Shown here: positions 10,301 through 60,100 of the stretch, one piece after another
Numbering within the stretch: position 1 is the first letter of the stretch
Layout: every line of letters begins with the position of its first letter
Assembly (NCBI RefSeq): GCF_030463565.1
Contig: NC_134646.1
Span: 40,121,240 to 40,185,239 of the forward strand
Length of the DNA: 64,000 bases
Source: Pelecanus crispus
Lineage: Eukaryota > Chordata > Aves > Pelecaniformes > Pelecanidae
Direction: 5' to 3'
Made by a program: the position numbers and the translations under genes
Notes under the pieces: generated by a model
Told to the model about the DNA's origin: nothing
The model's input: the letters and a program-made list of their open reading frames with translations, nothing else
Databases searched by the model: none

Positions 10301-13300
10301 GTCAACCTAATAAAACAGATGGAAAATATAAAGTATGAATGTACGTATGAAAGAAGTCTTGAATTACTTAATGTTTAACAGTAGGACCCCATGTCCATCC
10401 TCTTTCAAAGATTATTATAAAAATCTCAGAATAAAAATATTCCAATCTTAGACAAATACTAGCTTCAAACCACTCCTATAATATTCCCTACTTCATGTAA
10501 CACAATAGTCTGAAAGATGAAATTCCTAATGGGTTTTCTACAGTATAAAGGGTGAGGAAATAGAATCATACCAGAGACAACATAGCAGTTCAACTCCTTA
10601 AATGCTGCTACCCACACCGAGCTATATATAAAGGTGTTGACCATTATTCATAGAAAAGAAGACATGTTAACAATCAAAGTATTCAACCAAGACTGCTTTA
10701 TTCCTGAGAAAATTTTGTCTTCTACTTCTCAAAATGGTATTAGTCACCTGAACTCTGCATGCTCTCAAACTAAAAGTCGTATCAACACAATTCTCCTTCT
10801 CTCAAAACACTTAAAACATCTGTGGAAGAAGAAGAACAACCACCTGTCTTTATCAAATCTATCATTTCTATTTCCAGAATGGCATACGTTTCAAGTGGTG
10901 TTACTTTTCCAGTGGCGATAAACAGTTTACAATTACTGCTGTCTATACCACAGTTTATCTTCAGCTCTGTCAAATGTATACATTGCCATTTGTAATACTA
11001 TCAGTTTACACTTGTACCCTACTAGAATTAATGACCTTGAAAAAAACTGATCACAGCATGAGACCAGTGTCACCATGGTTTCTGTAGTTAAGTTTATGTG
11101 GACAAATTTAAAGTTAAAGGAGGCAGGCACCTGCCAACTTCAGTTCTGAACCACAGCAAATGCTATCCAAAAACATTTTCACAAGCTGAAGTGCTTCTCA
11201 ATAGCCAGATACAAGGCGTTTCTGGTTTCTAGCTGTAATGTATTTTTACTATTCTAATTCTGTATATGGAATGTACATGTGCAGCCCTCTTTTCTTCCCC
11301 TCTCAACAACAGGTCTTCCTTCAGTTTGAACAACTTGAAAAGCAAACAACTGCTGGGAATTGAGAATGACTAGCTCTGACGTAGTAAAAGTCTCTTAAAA
11401 AGGTTGATCTTCTATTATTTCTAGTAAGTGACACAAAATCTTTTTAAGGGTGGATATTTAAAAAGTTGCACAGAAAAGGTGTGTAGGTACAACATTAAGT
11501 TAGTCATCTGCAGGATGGAGTTCTAGTAATAGCAATTTGTCACTACCGCACAAACAAAAGTAAAAAGAAAGAACAGAAAAAAATTAAGTGCAATAATTGT
11601 AAGTAATTGTGGTTTTAGCTACTGGGGAAAAATCAGCTGCAATTAGCACTGAAAAAAAGAAATAGCAATCCCCTCCCACAGCATTCTCTTTCCTAAAATT
11701 GTATGTCACCATTTAATCAGGACCTTGCTCAATTCTTAAGAAAAAAGGCTTAGTGAACATCATCACAGACACCATGTAACTCAGATTACCTACGTCTTGC
11801 ATTCTGTAAAATACCTTAAAAGAAAAATACTTACATCTTTCAAGTCTATATCTGAATCTTCAGGAAAATCTGGATGAGCATCTCCGGATCCATCCTGAGG
11901 GACAATTCCCCAATCATCTCCCTCCTTTAGCTCTCCACATTCTGCAATGACGCACAACTGAAAAAACAGAGTAAATAGCGGTATTGCTTATTAAGGCAAT
12001 TTCCCCCAAAAAAGCCACAACTTCTGAGTGCTCTCTGAAATACAGTAAAAATGCTTTTTCATCTGTTGTTGGGGTGCATTGATTTCAGAAACTCATCACA
12101 TCATTAGCCTATCCTCATCAAAAGGCTTTTATCACAGAAAGTGTTGCCTTCAGAGGAGCAGCATTCCAAGAACACCATACCCATGCTCCACAGAGAGGCT
12201 GGAAGAGGAACTGCCAGCAAGCTGAGCTCCAGCAAAACGCAAGATATGGAAGTTCTACTACATTAGAGAAGATGCTTCTTTCTCAAACTGCCAAGTCTTT
12301 TAAAGTTACAGAGGTATTCATTTTTCAAACAACCACAAACTGACATGACCTACACACCAGTTGCTTTTCCAGAAATACAATGACTTCTGACATAAAATTC
12401 ACAAGAATTACCTATCACTTAGGTACGGTTGTGAATTCCACCTTTTAATTTCATCACCCATCCTACACTTGTAGCTGTGCCTTTCCACCTTCACCCTGAT
12501 AAAGGCTTCTACCGTCACAGCTGTGTTGAACAATAAATTGTTTGTGCAGGGAAAATTTACAGCAAAAGAACAAGAGCTTCTTAACAAGGACAGTAAAATG
12601 GAAATTAACAGTGTCAGTAACAATGACTGGTTAACATTCAATACTTCTAAGCATTACACCAAGCATTTAGAAGAAATCAATACACATCATATAATGGAAG
12701 AATAAACATCATCCCTAAGTGCTTTGGATTTTGCTTACCTTAGCAGGATTTTCTCCTTTGACTTCAACGTTTTCTAATATTTTAACTACACCCATTCCTT
12801 TGATCACTTGGCCAAACACCACATGTTTCCCATCCAGGTGAGAAGTAGGCACCGTTGTAATAAAGAACTGAGAGCCATTAGTACCAGGTCCTGCATTTGC
12901 CATGCTCAGCAGCCCAGGTTTATCATGCTGCATTGGGGGAAAAAAATCACAATCAACATATGAGAGATCGGTTATAAAACCATACCTAAGATTCTGTAAG
13001 GCTATTAATATATATAGCAAGGACAGCCATAATGACAACTTTGTAAACCAGTTACATACAGTTGGCAACTAATTCTATCTACCATGACTGCAGAGGGCAA
13101 ATTGCCCAGCTCTGCATCTTTACTTGCCACCTAGCAGTCTAGCAAGCGGAGCCACATGTGTGACTTGATGCTGTAACACCTGTCTGCTTCTTGTACACTC
13201 AATCCCCTGCACAGCTGCTGAGTTTAGACAGATCACCTGAGAGAAGTGCCTCACTGGATTATATAAGACCACTGGCCCCAAGAAACAAAGCAAAACACCG

Positions 13301-16300
13301 CTTAAACCAACTTTAATATTACACTGTCAAGACGGGTATGTATTGTTAATTTTGTAAGGCCTACTCACACAAAGCGTGTTGTGGAACTGTGGGTTTTAAA
13401 GGACTGTGGTCTTTAATTTAAAGGTTGGTGGGGTTTTTTTAACTCCTTCACTTTCCTAGAAAGATGGTTTTATTCTTTTGGGATTTTTAACCATCCAATT
13501 ATTTTGGCTTATGCTACCAGGCCACAAACTAACAAAAATTTATTAAACAGCCCAACATGAGAAGATGCTGTTTATCTTGTTTTCCGTAAGTACTTTTTCC
13601 TTCTTTGAAATAAGAACCATCTTGCTCCATCACACAGATTATTTCATTTCCACTTGTACTGCAAAAATGTACTTTTCATATGTGTTGTGAATCTCTTTTG
13701 TTACACTGACATGACTCAGCCTTTAAGATATTATTCTCCCCCAGCTGATCTGGTTATTAAGTGCAAGGAACTCTGTTTAACATAAGTCAGTATGTTACAC
13801 CAAGGCACTGGTACATGACTGAGGCATGCAAACTGTGGTATTCCTAAGAAACCTGATACTGTGGGGAGGAGGGGAGGGCAAAAATAAAAAAGTATGACAG
13901 CACAGAGAAGACTGCTGTGAAGTAGAACTCAGAGCTCGACGGGAGGTTCATCAGTTTGAGACAACAATCTGAGACAGCTGTTATTTAAGCATCTCGTTTG
14001 TCCCTATAGTCTCTACCACTTCGAAGAACCTGTTGTTTTGAAAAGTGTTTTCCCCACACAGTGTTTGGATTTCCATGGTGGCAGGGAGAACTCCTTGCCT
14101 GAGGTGTTCATCCAGTCATACGGTGCAATGAGACTGAATCTTTCAACCAGGATTTGGCTCAGGAACTCTGGGCAAAGGTTGTACAGCCGAGAGCTAGAAC
14201 TGCACCTAGCCAACAGAAAGCTACTGGAATAATCTTGACTTCGTCTCTTCTAATCTTGAAACTCATCCTGGGAATCGGAGATGACAAATGACACAGAGGA
14301 ACCCTGTGTTCCACAGCAAGAGAAGGCATCTGCTAGCAAGCCTGCAGGAATGCAGCCTCCAAAACAAACGTGACATTTTGCACCATAGTTCCTGGCAAAC
14401 AAGTTAATCAGAAGGGTTCCCCCATAGGAGATTTTTACAAATACCATTTGAAGCTGGTCTCTGATTCACTGCCCAAGAGGCAGAATAAGACCTGTAATTT
14501 TTTTTTTTTTTTTCAGTTACAACTAATGCTAGACAGCAAGGGTTTGTAAATAAAGAGCCAAGTAACAATAAGCTCTGCTGTTGCCATATACCTGCACGTT
14601 TACCTTTTGTCTGTAAAGATTTGGAAGACAAGTTGGAAAGTTACGGACAGTAGTCTGGTGGCTCTGATCTTCACACTTACATGCAACTCCATTTCGTTTG
14701 GGACCAAGTCTCAACATTAGTCCCATGATGAGAGTCCCCATTCATGATCAGAGTCCCTATTTATAAACAAAACTGTTGTCACTCATGCATTTTCTTGCCA
14801 TGAGTGTTCTGAAAAACACTGCAAATACAGTGTCTTTCCCGTGATGGTTTCTGCTGGTCATTTTGAAAGCTTATAAAGCAAGTAAAAAAGTCCAGTTAAA
14901 ATCAGATTCTCTGACAGATTCAAGGCTTGCAAAACTATGCCATGGTAACAACACTGCTTGAGGTCTGCGTAAGTTGAGTGTTTCACAACAGCACAGCCAT
15001 TAATTAGCTGGAGAAGGGACACCAAAAAAAAGCCCAGTGGGATTGATGTGACATGGTAAGCTGACTACTGACAAAGTCTTGCAGTTTATTGCAATTTACA
15101 GGAAACCATACAAACACCGCAAGAACAAACAGGTAGCTCCAGTGTCCTCAAGTGTCAACAAAAACAACTCATTGTTGTCCAAGACAGTGGTTTGAGGACA
15201 CTTTGCAGGACTGCTAGATTAAGTGCAAGATCCAGTGAATTTCTACCTAACAGAGGCATTTTAACTCCCACTAAAATCCTAACATACTTGGCCAACAGAT
15301 GATTGGAATTGAGCTCCCAGACTCTGTACAAGATCCAAGTGAGTTCTTCGACTCATCCCTGGCACACTGACAACTTCTGTTATAGCTCAGCAGTCAAGAG
15401 AAGTACAGAAATGGGGATCATCTGCATTCCATTCATAATTACCTCCAGATCTCACTTGACAGTACAACCAAAAAAGTAACGATGACACAGTCTCCTTCTT
15501 CAGGGAGCCAGAGATCCTGTGACAAGGACCATGCACAAGAGTAACTTAAAGCAGCAGTGCTATGGGCACCACCATAGCAAGTGTCAGGCTTCAGAGAACA
15601 ATTCTCTCAACTGTAATTAACTCTATGATGAATACTGGAGCTACATTTCCAGCTATTGCTCCAAACTTGGCCATGGACTTTGATGCCTGATGAGTGGAGG
15701 ATTGCCATATTTTCTTTTCCTAAAATACTGTTTCGAGGCAAGCACAATTGCAGTCAGGGCTTTGTTTTAACCACAGGACAACAATATATGTAAGTTTTTT
15801 AGTCCGTGTTGTTGAGGAGTCATTCACATGCTATCACAATAACGCAATATGAAAATGGTAACTGCCAGTGCTGAGAATTGTTACACCTACAACAGCGGGT
15901 GTTCTGGCTGTTGTAAGGGGTACTTGCAGAACATGTTATTTTTGTTGTTTCCAGGTAGTACTCCCACCCAGGTTCAAGATGCAATTATGAACAGTTCAAG
16001 CACAGGGGATTTTTTCCACCCACACAGCCCTTTATGTACAGCTGAGAACACAGATGAGCACTCAGAACAATTACTATGGTTGCCACTTTTCTCCAGAATA
16101 GCTAAGTCTGCTAGCCAAAACATGTAAGTCACAGTATACAGGTAATACTTAAATTTGGACGTCTTCAAATACTGTATAAATTGCAGGCTTAAGGTACACA
16201 GACCTGCTGTACAGTATGGTGAAAAGCAGTCTTCTTCCCTTTCTGGAATACCCATTTTTAAAGAAAGGTAGAACTAAAATGCTTAAAAAAAGATTTAAAA

Positions 16301-19300
16301 ATACAAAAGGCAAACATTTCTTCTTCAAAAGCATAAAAAAGAATTCAATCTTATGTCAAAAGACAACCTGGAGGCATCGACTGCATCTGGTTTTGATGAC
16401 AAAGAGAAGCCCAAAGAATGGTAATGGACATTTTGAAGGTCGTGCCTTTGCAAAACAAACAACAAAAGACACAGGACACATCCTGAGAAAACTGTTGTTC
16501 AAAAAATGTACTTGGCAAGTTGTGTATTTAAAGCACATGCATCTGCAGTATTCCTGGTGTCACTAGATGTTGATTTCAAGGACAAAGACAGTTTTATAAT
16601 TTCCTACTCTCACAACACAGCTCCCTCCTCTCTTCCCACAGCTGACAAAACTGCTTGTGGGACTGCACTAATGGTTGCTAGTAATGAAATAGTGAGCTCT
16701 GATACAGGAGTGGAAATAAGTAATGGGAGGGGTAGGAATTTCTGCCATCAAAGCCAGCATCTCTTAAAATGACATCCTCCAATTGAGATCTTTCCATATT
16801 CAAAAACTTGCTGTGTTCACAGCACATTTTTCCAACATTTTGGGGGAAAAAAAAGCCATCCATAAACAGCCTTTTACTTCTCATATCACTGAAAATAACT
16901 GTAGTGGGGAAAATGCTTTCTTTCAAATTTTCCTTTGGATTAATTCTGCAATCTACCATGGATTCCCCACTTCTTAAATATGAAAGGTGTTTCTCACATC
17001 TAATCTTATTCTGAATGTTATTAGAATATGAAAAAGCAGCATAAAATCCATTTAATGCTAACATACTGTATATGCTTCAGAGTGACAAAATTTGCTACTC
17101 TTTTAAAATAATACCCCTGCTTCAGTGAGAACTGAAAGATTGTTTCAAACTAATTTCTGATGGTGGAATTGAAAGTTTAAATGATGGTTGTCTTTGTCTT
17201 AATGAGATTGACCTCATTTTGTATGTATTCATACATGTATTTGCTCTGTATTCAACAAAGACTTTAAGGACAAAGTAGTTTGGGGCTTTTCTGCTGCATT
17301 CTTTACACTGTTTAAAAATACATTAATCTTGACTAAAGAGTGCTAATTCTGAACTTGAAGAAAAATAAAAATCACTGAAAGTTCAAAAACTGAATACAAT
17401 TAGTATTTTTCAAGAGTACCTTATAATGAAAGTTTTCATCTTCAAATTTTTCACCATATATACTTTCTCCACCTGTGCCATTTTGGTTTGAGAAATCTCC
17501 ACCCTGGACCATGAATTGTTTAATAACTGTAAAAGAAAATAATTATAAAATACAGCAGCAAGGCAGGAAAGGCATGAAAAAAAAAATTCAGAGGTGAAGA
17601 GCAATCCCTGTCACCAGCACCTGCACCTAAATAAAACCGAAAACCACCTTTTATTTATCAAGTCTCCCCTAAGTACTCCTTTTCAGTTAAGTGGACATCA
17701 CTCGATATTTAACCCTTTACCTGAAACCCATTTCAACCTATTCACAACTCATAGTAAACTAGTTTTACTACTACTAACTTAGTAGTAAATTTATAATTTA
17801 CTATTGTCAATGCATGGTAAAAACATCTGGTCATCAGGAGGATCAAAAACTTACTTTCAGTCAAGTTATTTCTTAAACAAGTGCTCCAAAATATTATTTA
17901 ACATTATTTCAAACACCGATAATAGAGGAATTCTGTTACCACCAGGGAAACAGGGGATTTCATAGAACTTACTTCTGTGGAAAGGACATCCTTTATAATG
18001 GAGAGGTTTTCCAGTGGTAGGCCCTATTCCTTTCTCTCCTGTACATAACGCACGGAAATTTTCAGCAGTTTTCGGTACAACGTCAGCAAATAATTCAAAG
18101 ACAATGCGTCCAACTGAAACGACAAAGAGAGAATGAGACACACTTTTAAGTCCCGTCCTTGGCATGGTGATGTGTTGAGCATTACAGAGCAAAGGAAATT
18201 AATGTTTCAGACTTGATTATTTCTATTTAGATTACTACTAAATTTACATTTTGGGGTTGTTCCATGGCAATCGCTGGCAGAGTTATATTAGGTTTTTAGC
18301 AAGGTTATTACCAGCAATGAATTCCACTATCAAGAATAACTTAGGGGGAATAAAGATAAGATTCTGCCAAAAACTACCAAAAATGCCAAATACCTTTTCT
18401 GCCAAAAAAAATGCCCATGGGAAATCACACACACATATATTGAAGCCAAATTATGTATTTTAACATGCATTACTTATTTTATGTCTCTTCTAACATACAT
18501 ATGTAGCTTGTTCAATCAAAAATAGATACAATAAAAAAAAAGACTGTTTTGTGGAGACTTTTATTTGATCAAAAGGCTTATGCCAAACATGCACACTAAC
18601 CTTACTCCTCATTCTCTTAAACCCCAATTTTACTAAGACACAGTGTTACTTAACATGCATGTGAATAATGGCTATTTACAGTTACACACGCTACAAGCAA
18701 TCGTTAAAACCGAAAATGTGCATGTTTTAACTACAGGAAGTGAAACCTGAGTACCTAACAGATCCTGTAATAGTCGATATATGGATTTTGTGTCAAATGC
18801 TCATCTTGTCATGCACTGGCTTGTCAGCGAGCTATTTCTCACTCCTAGCAGCTGCCATCAGTTGATGCTGCTGTTTTCTCAGCAGCCTCACAGTCAATTA
18901 GTTAACATAACTACGCTCTACCGGAAGCTAAATGTAAATATATTAATTCCAATTAATACAGGAATGAAAACAAATTAGACAACTGAAAGTCAATAAAAGG
19001 CGAACGATCTTACAGGCTTTCTTCTTTCATTCTTTGGGAGTAGCAGAACGAATAAATCGGAGGCAATATCCCGAGAAAAGGGCAGCGCCTATCTTCACCC
19101 ACGCAAATTTTGAAAACCTACGCTTTCGAATGTTACCCCAGCTTCCACGTTGCTGCTTTCTTATTTCCATTTTGCCCGTTTGCCCAGATTCTTGAATGAC
19201 CTCTGGCAGCACCGGCGGCGCCCAGAAAATGGCCGGGACGGCGGGGTTTGCCTCAGCTTTCGCCGCCGCAGCCCCACAGGCCGGCAGCCCGGGCAGGCTG

Positions 19301-20085
19301 CGGCGCGTCCCCAGGGCATGGCGGGGGGCCGGGCCTGAGGGCGGGGGTCACCGCCCGACCGGCGGCTCCCGGCGGTGGGGGCCGAGCTCGGCGCAGCGGC
19401 AGCCATAGGAAGGCCGGGCCCCCGACGGCGCGGCGCACTGCGGCGCTCGGGAGGGCACGGCTGCACTGGAAGGCGTCGCAGCGCTCGCTGATGGCGCTGC
19501 CTGTGCCCGCTCCCCTGCAACACCCGCGGGTATTTCCCTCAGCGGGGAGGCCACGGGGAACGGGGCGCCTGTGCAGCCATGTTGCCCCCCTCTCCGCTTC
19601 CTCGGGCCTGTCCGTTCTGCCGCGGAAACCTCGGAGGGAGCGGGCAGGGCCCGGCGGGGTGGCCCCTCCGCCCCGCAGCGGGCCCGTTGGCGGCGGGGCC
19701 GTGCTTCTCCTCCTCCCCGGGGCCGGGTGGGTGCGCTCGCAGCCCGCGGGGACAGCGCCCGGCCCGGCGCGGCGCCCCCGCAGCCCCACGGTCCCTCCCC
19801 GCCCGGAACGTTCCGCCCCGCCGCGGTATGAGCCGCGCCGCGCCCGCCCGCTCCCCGCCGCCCGGCCCGGGCCCCCCGCGTTCCGCGCAGAGGGGGCGGT
19901 CCGGCCCCCCCCGCTCCCGGCCCCGACCCCGGCCCCGGCCCCGGCGGTCTCGGCCGGGTCCCCGCCGCGAGGGCCCCGTCCCGCCCCCTCCCCTCCCCAC
20001 CTCGCTCGCCCCCGATGTCCACATCGAAGAAGGCGCGGGGGTTGCAGGCCTTGCTGGGCCGGGCGAGAGGGGACGGGTGCGACAT
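4303..20085 (-). CDS. PPID: PPID, peptidyl-prolyl isomerase D (cyclophilin 40), complete
   Basis: Cyclophilin 40 is a cytosolic Hsp90 co-chaperone with an N-terminal proline isomerase domain and a C-terminal TPR domain that binds the Hsp90 MEEVD tail; it is found in steroid-receptor complexes. Ten minus-strand exons (20001-20085, 17973-18113, 17420-17526, 12739-12927, 11835-11957, 10200-10306, 7438-7579, 5062-5148, 4939-4981, 4303-4391) join in frame to 1113 bases: 370 codons plus stop, the human length. The start at 20085 gives MSHPSP and [10 protein letters not shown] as in mammals. Isomerase residues R75, F80, M81 and Q83 are present. H141 replaces the tryptophan of cyclophilin A, the known cause of weak cyclosporin binding in this family. 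TPR clamp residues K227, N231, N278, K308 and R312 are all kept. The protein ends AYAKMFA. It is divergent from FNIP2, with a CpG-island promoter. Nothing is broken. Confidence 0.98.
4939..4981 (-). CDS. PPID: PPID exon 9
   Basis: A 43-base micro-exon encoding [14 protein letters not shown] plus one base (TPR3, residues 328-341). It has donor GTAAAA and acceptor TTTAAG on the minus strand. Intron 8 beside it is only 80 bases. Confidence 0.94.
5062..5148 (-). CDS. PPID: PPID exon 8
   Basis: It encodes residues 299-327, [19 protein letters not shown] and following, with the Hsp90-clamp residues K308 and R312. It is 29 whole codons. Its length and phase fit the neighbouring exons. Confidence 0.96.
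7438..7579 (-). CDS. PPID: PPID exon 7
   Basis: It encodes residues 252-298, from [14 protein letters not shown] through [20 protein letters not shown]278 of the TPR clamp is present. The split Arg codon with exon 6 fits (two bases plus one). Confidence 0.96.
8872..8889. repeat. Poly(A) tract with A/C-rich tail
   Basis: An uninterrupted run of 18 A is followed by a C/A-rich patch to about 8911, within PPID intron 6. It could be a simple repeat or a retroposed tail. No element body was recognised next to it. Confidence 0.8.
9050..9345 (+). mobile_element. Diverged CR1-like LINE 3' fragment
   Basis: The order of motifs resembles a CR1 3' region: a GGTTGTTCAGCCTGGAGAAG-like stretch near 9085-9118, a TTTGAGCAACCTG-like stretch near 9204-9220, and a terminal CTTTAAAGGTCCCTTCCAACC-like stretch followed by an ATTCTATGATTCT-like end near 9303-9342. 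It lies in PPID intron 6 in sense to the plus strand. Identity is low and was judged by eye from memory of the family. Confidence 0.5.
10200..10306 (-). CDS. PPID: PPID exon 6
   Basis: It encodes residues 216-250 plus two bases: [20 protein letters not shown] and [15 protein letters not shown]. It begins TPR1 and holds the clamp residues K227 and N231. Confidence 0.95.
11835..11957 (-). CDS. PPID: PPID exon 5
   Basis: It encodes residues 175-215, [17 protein letters not shown] then the acidic linker [20 protein letters not shown] between the isomerase and TPR domains. It is 41 whole codons. Confidence 0.95.
12739..12927 (-). CDS. PPID: PPID exon 4
   Basis: It encodes residues 112-174, including [20 protein letters not shown] and [15 protein letters not shown]. 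This is the core of the cyclophilin fold. The His of TSHLDG is residue 141. It is exactly 63 codons, as in mammals. Confidence 0.97.
12928..17419 (-). other. PPID intron 3, no recognisable gene
   Basis: The longest PPID intron (4.5 kb). Short open frames occur on both strands around 14013-14741 and 15849-17064, but none resembles a known family and they overlap each other. No clear repeat family could be named. Confidence 0.6.
17420..17526 (-). CDS. PPID: PPID exon 3
   Basis: It encodes residues 76-111: [38 protein letters not shown]80, M81 and Q83 of the isomerase site are here. Acceptor TTACAG and donor GTACTC are on the minus strand. Confidence 0.96.
17973..18113 (-). CDS. PPID: PPID exon 2
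   Basis: It encodes residues 29-75: [43 protein letters not shown]75 is the catalytic arginine of the fold. The donor is a perfect GTAAGT. Confidence 0.96.
19805..19814. promoter_or_regulatory. Heat-shock-element-like palindrome in PPID intron 1
   Basis: GGAACGTTCC fits nGAAnnTTCn, two inverted HSF units, and lies 187-196 bases inside intron 1 within the CpG island. A third adjoining unit is not seen on either side, so it is a minimal site. PPID is an Hsp90 co-chaperone, which makes heat-shock control plausible. Confidence 0.4.
20001..20085 (-). CDS. PPID: PPID exon 1 (start codon exon)
   Basis: The ATG is at 20085 on the minus strand. It encodes [16 protein letters not shown] and [12 protein letters not shown] plus one base of a Val codon. 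Donor GTGGGG follows at 20000. The start context has G at -3. It lies within a CpG island. Confidence 0.96.
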
Positions 20086-28429: not shown

Positions 28430-28524
28430 ATGGCCCCCACCCTGCTCCAGAAGCTCTTCAACAAAAGGGGCGGCAGCGCGGCGGCCCCCCACGGCCGGGC
28501 TCCGGGGGAGGGGCCCGCCTTCAG
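28430..28524 (+). CDS. FNIP2: FNIP2 exon 1
   Basis: It encodes [20 protein letters not shown] and [11 protein letters not shown] plus two bases. The MAPTL(L/F)QKLF start is shared by FNIP1 and FNIP2. Donor GTGAGC is at 28525. The exon is GC-rich within the CpG island. Confidence 0.96.
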
Positions 28525-57100: not shown

Positions 57101-60100
57101 GCTTACAAGATAGCTTTGAATACATCAACCAAGATCCTAGCTTGGGAAAGTTGAGCTCGAATCCGAATGGTTTGGGAACCTGTCGCAGTGGAAGTAACTT
57201 AGGTAAATATTTCCAGGTTCTGTGTCTTTGTGACAACATGAGGCCATCTGTTTGTTCAGTTTGGTGGTTTTTTCCTGTGTATCACCTTCTTTTTTTTTTT
57301 CTTTTTTACTTTTTGCATTGCATTTTCTCTACATTGCTTTTGTTTCGTAGGTGTGTTACAGCTGTGTAGCAGCAAACTGCTGCAGGGTGTGTCTGAAGGA
57401 GGTCGCCTCCGGCTCATCCGCAGTGCTTCTTTCTTTGCAGGTTTGTGTGGAATGCCAACCACAGTGTGACCCATCTGTATGCACACACAAATCCAGCTCC
57501 TTCTGAATCCTTGCAGGACATACATAACTACTCTCTAGAAACAGAAAGGGCTAAAATGGTGACAACAGATGTATCTGGCTTATACTTAAAAATCTTTCTT
57601 CCAAAAAAATAGCTAAATTAATTGCTTTTTGTTCATATTTCTTTTCCAGTTCCTGCGTTTAATTTTAAAGGTATTTTTATGCAGTGTTTTTAATAATAAA
57701 CGAGCCCTTATGTTTCTTAGAGAACTTATGTTTCCTGGCTTATAGCTGATTTCTTGCTAGTGTGCAGGTGTCTTGCTGGTGTACAGCTTTTTCTTCTCTT
57801 ACCTCTTGCTACTTTTTTTTTTATAATTTGATGGCAGACATGCAGAATTAATTCTTGAGCTAAGTCTGGGAGGCTTTAAGGTTTTTTCTTTAACAGTATC
57901 AACTTTAATTTTCAAAACTTTAAACTACACAAAGTCTCTTTTTACAGGCATACTGATGACCCATGCAGGTGGGTAGATCTTAGGCCAAATTAGTTCTGTT
58001 AATTGCAAAAATGTGAACTGGAATACCAATGCATTTTCTTCACAGCCTTTGCAAATCTTGCATGCTCTACAATTTGAGTGACTCTGCACTACTAACACTT
58101 TAATGTAATACAACATAGGTTGACTATTTCTTACTGTGATGCTTTGTGGATAGTAAATTTCTGCTTGGGGAGTGAATCAGAAGCTTAATGGACCTATTTG
58201 ACCATTTCATTATGATGTTGACCTATGTAAAATGACAATCTTGCACATACAAAAAAAGTGTCAAGTGTGACAGATGGGGGTACCACCAGCTCTCATTTTC
58301 AAAGCATATCTGATTTCTGATAATGTAGACTGTATTCACATTCTTAAGCTTCTTAGAGATGTTTTTAGATTGGGGCAAATAACCAACTTCCTCTAGTAAC
58401 AGGATACTTAGCATGGAATACTGTTTGCTGCCACCTTTGCTCACACCATACTGCTTATTTGGAGTAACAGTACAGGACGTAACTTTGCTGTTTTATGACC
58501 TTTAAACTTTAACTTTTTTTTAAATGCTGACAAATAGAAAATATTACATAACTCATTATACTATTGATCTAATCTGTTTGTTTTAGCACACAGCACGCCT
58601 GTTGATATGCCTAGCAGAGGACAAAATGAGGACAGAGACAGTGGCATTGCTCGGTCAGGTATCTGCTGTCTGTCTTGTTTGCCTGCTTTTGTAATTATGT
58701 TACAATTCTTTGGTGCAGTTATTCACCTGAAATATAAGCACCTTATGACCCATAAATCCAAATTTTTTTGGATCTGCTAAGTGGTTTTCCATCTGCTTTT
58801 GCCCCAAGCCTCAATGCAAGAATATTTGTAATGATATTCTTTGTTTACAGCCATTATTTTCTGGTTTCTTAACCAGTTTATAATTTGGAGAAAGAACTGG
58901 CTGGAGCCTTTACTAAAGCAAGGGAAGAGAAGATGTTTTTGCATTGAATAGGAAAAGGAGGCCAGGAGACCTGTCTGTTGTAATGGGAGGGCAGTACCTC
59001 TTAGGACAGAATGCTTTTAATGAGAGTAAGATGACTTTTAGTATGTTCTAGCAGGGAAGATCTCTGACTTTATAAGAAAGTCCTCAGGCAGCATGATTTA
59101 CTTAAAATAATTGTGTCTCCTGTTGCAAGTGAGTTTTGTGAAAAAGATTAGTAAGCAAGAGCAATATGTGTGGGAATTTGTTCCCAGTTAGAGTATGAAG
59201 AAAAATATTTAACCAGTGCTCCTTGTAATTCAGTATATGTGGGGTTTCTTGCTTTCTTGATAGCATCTCTGAGCAGTCTTCTGGTGACTCCTTTTCCATC
59301 TCCAAGCTCTTCATCATCATCTTCTAGCAGCTACCAACGTCGCTGGCTCCGAAGTCAGACAACCAGTTTAGAGAATGGAATTATTCCAAGGTGGTGAGTG
59401 CAACACCTTTCTTCTTACAACAGCTGTTTGGCAGTAATTTAAGCTAAATAGACCCTAAGCCTCTTTTCTTTAAAAGGACAAATCCTGTTATTGAATGCTC
59501 TCAATTCAGTCTGACTTCTGTGTATGTTATATAAGACTGCCAATATGAAGAAAGATCAATTTTTCACTGACTATGAACTGCAAGGCCTGATTTGAAATAT
59601 ACTTATTTTTATTGAACGTATAGGCTGTGTCTGAAGCCACATTCTGAAAAGCAAATTAAAGTGTTTCTGAAGGAGCAGAGCATCCTGTTGAAATGAAATG
59701 GACTGGACTGTAATAGCACTGCTGCCATAATTACATTATACTGTGATGAAGTCTGACTAGTGAGCAGTTACTGAAATTTTGGAGTAATAGTCTATGATGA
59801 CTCTCTTGGCTGGTATAGGATGTTCTAGATGTGACTTCTGCCAAAACAGGAAGAAAAAAAAAGAAAGCTATGATCAAAAAGCTTGGCTTCTGGTTTGGAA
59901 TTTTATTAGCTTTTGTAGCTTAGCGGCATAACAAAGCATGGAATGCGGCAGACCTTTCATAGCTAATAAGCAAATTCTTCCCTTGTCAGTTGCAAAATAG
60001 CAAATGATTCTTCATTATCTGCTCATAAGTACTCATCCACCTGCACCCAGAGACAGCATGGAACTAGTAGAGAGCCACAAGAAATTCCTATTGTTTGGCC

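Follow-up and report, generated by a model that had tools for sequence, protein, structure and literature searches.

A 90-base exon of FNIP2 in Pelecanus crispus is a paralogue of FNIP1 exon 7 and may tune the number of candidate AMPK sites

The window analysed here is the whole 64,000-nucleotide stretch of Pelecanus crispus DNA at C4:40121240-40185239 in a 1.31-Gb genome. FNIP2 lies on its + strand, starting at 28430 and extending past the window end. Upstream of it are a + strand gene from about 100 and a - strand gene at about 12000-20000, which we take to be ETFDH and the gene for the cyclophilin PPID, respectively. Rebuilding FNIP2 gave canonical splice ends for exons 1-6 and 8 and for the cassette; exon 9 was rebuilt as well, but its donor is unsettled. 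The features surrounding the cassette are as follows.

57102..57202, + strand: FNIP2 exon 6, with a phase-1 end (...CRSGSNL + G), matching human FNIP2 residues 186-218
57203..57350, + strand: intron upstream of the cassette, 148 bases, with the pyrimidine-rich acceptor TTTTGTTTCGTAG
57351..57440, + strand: FNIP2 cassette exon, 90 bases encoding 30 residues (211-240), with a paralogous FNIP1 exon in the same genome
57428..57445, + strand: 18 bases TCTTTCTTTGCAGGTTTG, shared unchanged with FNIP1 and running across the exon end into the donor, which has T at +3 and +4
57441..58586, + strand: intron downstream of the cassette, 1146 bases, starting with GTTTGTGTGG and UG-rich
58587..58658, + strand: next FNIP2 exon (exon 8 if the cassette is exon 7), with a 23-residue product

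The cassette is bounded by CGTAG/ and /GTTTGT, is entered and left in phase 1, and keeps the frame of the gene open. An earlier note on this DNA had claimed a frame-neutral 90-base exon at 57351-57440, and its length, AG/GT ends, phase and product were all reproduced from the sequence, as were the residue numbers 225, 235 and 237 given there for the serines of the included FNIP2 form. The same note placed the exon between FNIP2 exons 6 and 7; the position is right, but with the cassette counted as exon 7, as in FNIP1, the exon at 58587 becomes exon 8. Of the two remaining reading frames of the cassette, one has two stops and the other is open, so openness alone is weak proof of the cassette, and it is homology that carries the proof. 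Joining exon 6 straight to 58587 gives ...GSNL/AHSTPV, which is the human FNIP2 junction, and joining via the cassette gives ...GSNL/GVLQ...SFFA/AHSTPV.

In the same genome, FNIP1 maps to C8:2629110 and contains a counterpart exon of 84 bases at C8:2626513-2626596, in the same phase and with a 28-residue product. A tblastn search of the 40 kb around this gene with the 30-aa cassette product gave one match with an E value of 6e-7, the next match being at 1.1. The two cassettes have their intron position and phase in common, with the QDS(L/F)E(F/Y)IN exon before and the HS(N/T)P(M/V)DMP exon after them. Identical residues were found at 18 of 27 aligned positions and identical codons at 9 of 27, in an alignment that left out two partnerless FNIP2 codons and the split first codon. 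Like FNIP1 exon 7, the FNIP2 cassette lies between exons 6 and 8 and has the same 11-residue tail, the same serine spacing and a GTTTG donor, but it is longer (90 as against 84 bases) and its first half has diverged.

A search of the PDB with the included FNIP2 region returned four distinct sequences, three of human FNIP2 and one of human FNIP1. In all three human FNIP2 sequences (PDB 6ulg, 6nzd and 8dhb; 1114-residue chain), the flanks match and there is nothing between residues 218 and 219. Human FNIP1 (PDB 8je2) matches straight through, its cassette segment corresponding to residues 208-235 (28 residues), and differs from the FNIP1 cassette product of the Pelecanus crispus genome at 1 of 28 residues. 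Human FNIP1 likewise spaces its serines by 10 and 2 (residues 220, 230 and 232 by count on the alignment). The human FNIP2 reference protein aligns with flanking exons 6 and 8 to 10 and has the same junction as the skipped form, but is without the 30-residue insert. The proposal that the exon mirrors that of FNIP1 is borne out by its place, its phase, its serine spacing and the tblastn match, and the proposal that the usual mammalian FNIP2 description lacks it is supported for human by the FNIP2 sequences in the PDB (3/3).

Homology, phase and the substitution pattern rule out a pseudo-exon or chance match at 57351-57440. A copy of the cassette elsewhere in the genome was also considered and rejected, as a DNA search hit, besides the window, just one 36-base segment, a 94% match to bases 91-126 of the query, the T-rich stretch of the upstream intron. 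Viral and prokaryote collections, searched for cassette relatives on stray vertebrate contigs, gave 18 and 109 pattern matches, respectively, and 0 were confirmed. No Pfam family was found at E values up to 1 for a 130-aa region. There is thus good support for the cassette as a real exon and a conserved counterpart, by paralogy, of exon 7 in FNIP1; the simplest account is descent from the single gene that existed before FNIP1 and FNIP2 duplicated. This duplication probably occurred in early vertebrates.

Comparison of the last 11 cassette codons of FNIP1 and FNIP2 revealed 5 base differences, of which 5 are synonymous and 0 replacing (pS 0.55, pN 0.00). When 5 changes were placed at random in the tail, all were synonymous in 0.0009 of 200,000 trials. 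The corresponding values are pS 0.83 and pN 0.10 for the next exon (23 codons), and pS 0.81 and pN 0.32 for the first 16 aligned cassette codons. Because all 5 of the tail differences are synonymous, the 11-residue tail is held as protein, under a constraint at least as strong as that on the adjacent exon. The remainder of the cassette has drifted in FNIP2. All 5 changes fall within the first 7 of the 11 codons. In the last four codons the third bases are identical too, so constraint at the RNA level may add to the conservation.

The AMPK motif rule places hydrophobic residues at -5 and +4 and a basic residue at -3 or -4 relative to the phosphorylated residue. FNIP2 codons for the counterparts of FNIP1 serines, with the residues around each, are the following.

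57392..57394, + strand: S225 codon (FNIP1 S220 counterpart), LLQGV[S]EGGR, without a basic residue at -3 or -4
57422..57424, + strand: S235 codon (FNIP1 S230 counterpart), LRLIR[S]ASFF, full AMPK-type motif
57428..57430, + strand: S237 codon (FNIP1 S232 counterpart), LIRSA[S]FFAA, partial motif with Leu at -5, Arg at -3 and Ala at +4
59266..59268, + strand: FNIP1 S261 counterpart codon (S266 in the included form, S236 in the skipped form), IARSA[S]LSSL, full motif, outside the cassette

The AMPK sites reported in FNIP1 are S220, S230, S232, S261 and S593 (PMC10445941, PMC12026037). FNIP1 S220 lies in PRRAF[S]EQGP, and the arginines at its -4 and -3 positions are replaced by Leu and Gln before FNIP2 S225. 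S225 thus has nothing basic at either position, so the best-documented AMPK site, S220, is not mirrored in FNIP2. FNIP1 S220 itself has the basic part of the motif only, with Pro at both -5 and +4, and fails a screen for a basic residue plus one hydrophobe; the motif rule is thus not a strict predictor. Nor is the screen selective, with 10 candidate Ser/Thr residues over 306 residues of the included form and 7 over 276 of the skipped form. At the exon 6 end, S208 passes the screen solely in the included form. At the next pair of sites, FNIP1 S232 has Val at +4 where FNIP2 S237 has Ala.

The suggestion that the exon mirrors an AMPK phospho-switch therefore holds in part: S235 has the full motif and S237 a partial one, while S225 is without the basic residues. 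The further suggestion, that splicing decides whether FNIP2 answers to AMPK, is not supported, because the full-motif counterpart of S261 is constitutive and sits outside the cassette, so that splicing alone cannot make this decision. From the motifs present, splicing would alter the number of sites on FNIP2 and not the presence of any, and an AMPK on/off switch in FNIP2 is not supported. As a side observation, there are two RSAS motifs (57419-57430 and 59264-59268), which lie 29 residues apart with the cassette in (S237, S266), and only one is left with the cassette out. A spacing of 29 residues might suit a 14-3-3 dimer.

We consider it probable, at about 0.62, that the exon is a functional FNIP2 cassette, paralogous to FNIP1 exon 7 and derived from the gene before duplication, whose inclusion adds S235 and S237 and tunes the response to AMPK or a similar kinase. 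Inclusion would add a 30-residue insert ending in the conserved 11-residue tail, and would bring in a strong AMPK-type candidate, S235, and a weaker one, S237, paired with the RSAS site S266 located 29 residues on, outside the cassette. Skipped FNIP2 would keep just the last of these three, the S266 counterpart. In this way, splicing would tune the response of FNIP2-folliculin to AMPK, or to another kinase reading such a motif, instead of switching it on or off. Judged by its motif content, the likeliest function of the FNIP2 cassette would be to supply a splice-tuned set of S230/S232-type sites. The exon, its frame, homology, constraint and motif content are seen in the sequence; from these we infer that both FNIP2 forms are made in Pelecanus crispus, that the serines are phosphorylated and that folliculin GAP activity may be affected.

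The exon could also be optional and functional with a tail that serves a role other than AMPK signalling, such as recognition by a different basophilic kinase (of the PKA, CaMK, SIK or PKD type), docking of 14-3-3 together with the RSAS pair, or a phosphorylation-independent contact made by a 10-residue segment. Many kinases read L-x-R-x-x-S, and the surroundings of the S220 counterpart have diverged (pN 0.32) in contrast to the unchanged 11-residue tail; both points favour such a role. Against it, the residues at -5, -4 and +4 of S235 conform to the AMPK motif, and AMPK is reported to phosphorylate FNIP1 at S230 and S232, which lie in this peptide (PMC10445941). Such a role is compatible with our preferred explanation, and we regard it as possible, though on balance doubtful.

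The splice signals bear on whether the exon is optional. The FNIP2 cassette donor is GCAG/GTTTGT, with T at +3 and +4, and that of the FNIP1 counterpart is GCAG/GTTTGC; at +3, the other settled FNIP2 donors (n=7), those of exons 1-6 and 8, carry A or G. The retention of an off-consensus donor in both paralogues fits regulated use. Within 57428-57445, the last 13 bases of the cassette, TCTTTCTTTGCAG, resemble a 3' splice site (a pyrimidine run followed by CAG) placed on top of the donor, and are identical in FNIP1. As a decoy acceptor or a PTB/U2AF site, TCTTTCTTTGCAG could help to keep the exon optional. Use of the TTTGCAG at the cassette end as a true acceptor was rejected, since the downstream frame soon stops (GLCGMPTTV, then a stop).

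GTGTG and TGTGT words are crowded in FNIP2 57351-57500, on the exon and the donor side, and in FNIP1 C8:2626513-2626656, on the donor side. There are 8 such words in the FNIP2 exon plus 60 bases versus 2.6 in shuffles (18/1000 reach 8), and 6 in the FNIP1 region versus 1.2 in shuffles (11/1000 reach 6). These counts were also reached by 37/3543 nearby overlapping windows for FNIP2 and 50/3986 for FNIP1, and both the region and the words were picked after looking, so the enrichment is a lead only. The UG-rich words are possibly a TDP-43 or CELF element. The FNIP1 exon affected by TDP-43 is presumably exon 7. TDP-43 has been reported to change FNIP1 splicing (PMC8581290, PMC11431868).

Were the exon constitutive in this lineage, FNIP2 would always carry the 30 residues and just the mammalian reference form would be without them, which would make this a lineage difference and not a splice switch. 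The good order of exon, frame and acceptor and the constraint on the tail agree with constitutive use. However, the T at +3 and +4 of the donor is common to FNIP1, whose exon 7 can be skipped in human cells (PMC9376625), and the 90-base, phase-1/1 design permits harmless skipping and yields the exact human FNIP2 junction. We therefore consider constitutive inclusion unlikely. The same paper reports that the tested genes mostly yielded one transcript each in normal PBMC (PMC9376625), so healthy cells may skip the FNIP1 exon to a small extent only.

The exon could instead be a relic that dropped out of use too recently to show it, which we consider highly improbable. Its absence from the human FNIP2 PDB sequences (3/3) and the departure of the donor from consensus speak for a relic. 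Against it, when neutral decay was simulated with the present FNIP2 exon as the starting point, frame, splice ends and tail all survived in 5% of runs at 0.1 substitutions per site, 0.4% at 0.2, 0.03% at 0.3 and 0/20,000 at 0.5, figures with which a very recent loss would still be compatible.

Among the open-licence papers listed, no description of the FNIP2 cassette exon was found within the portions of text available, and quite possibly a predicted transcript containing it is already in a sequence database. We take the event code AP to stand for alternate promoter. This is the code given to the FNIP2 event in PMC6736558, and PMC12104353 mentions FNIP2 solely in a reference.

Two published comparisons of FNIP1 with FNIP2 can be set beside the present alignment. 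In one, S220 was described as not conserved in FNIP2, and a mechanism peculiar to FNIP1 was inferred (PMC10849678). In the other, S230, S232 and S261 were equated with FNIP2 Thr214, Ser216 and Ser244, of which Thr214 and Ser216 apparently lie outside conventional AMPK motifs (PMC10445941). The pairing of S261 with Ser244 agrees with our alignment. The other two pairs differ from it, in that the homologous counterparts of S230 and S232 sit in the cassette omitted by the human reference form. Thr214 and Ser216 of human FNIP2 are in CRTGSNL at the end of exon 6, among the last residues before the junction (counted from the PDB alignment). As they belong to the exon before the missing cassette, their pairing with S230 and S232 looks like an alignment across a gap.

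The FNIP2 residue numbers in PMC10445941 are those of the 1114-residue form without the cassette, and PMC10849678 probably used the same form. For Pelecanus crispus FNIP2, the non-conservation of S220 remains true in substance, the serine being present and the preceding basic residues absent. The idea of switching confined to FNIP1 may partly reflect the version of the protein compared. The roles of the five FNIP1 AMPK sites are described as unresolved (PMC10445941), and S220 mutants left TFEB and S6K unchanged in one study (PMC10849678).

Folliculin together with FNIP1 or FNIP2 controls RagC/D and TFEB, and FNIP1 is treated as the AMPK-responsive partner (PMC10849678, PMC10445941). The cassette is a natural FNIP2 variant with S230/S232-type candidate sites and no conventional S220-type site, and bears on a question posed in PMC10445941: the importance of each of the five sites, and the ability of FNIP2 to stand in for FNIP1. 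A phospho-insert gated by splicing may be older than the FNIP1/FNIP2 duplication, and FNIP2 may still use it, either outside mammals or in a rare mammalian form; we suggest this tentatively, at less than even odds. If so, confinement of the AMPK cluster to FNIP1 would be a feature of the isoform taken as the mammalian reference, and common splicing factors, with TDP-43 as a candidate from FNIP1, would set the number of sites on both folliculin partners.
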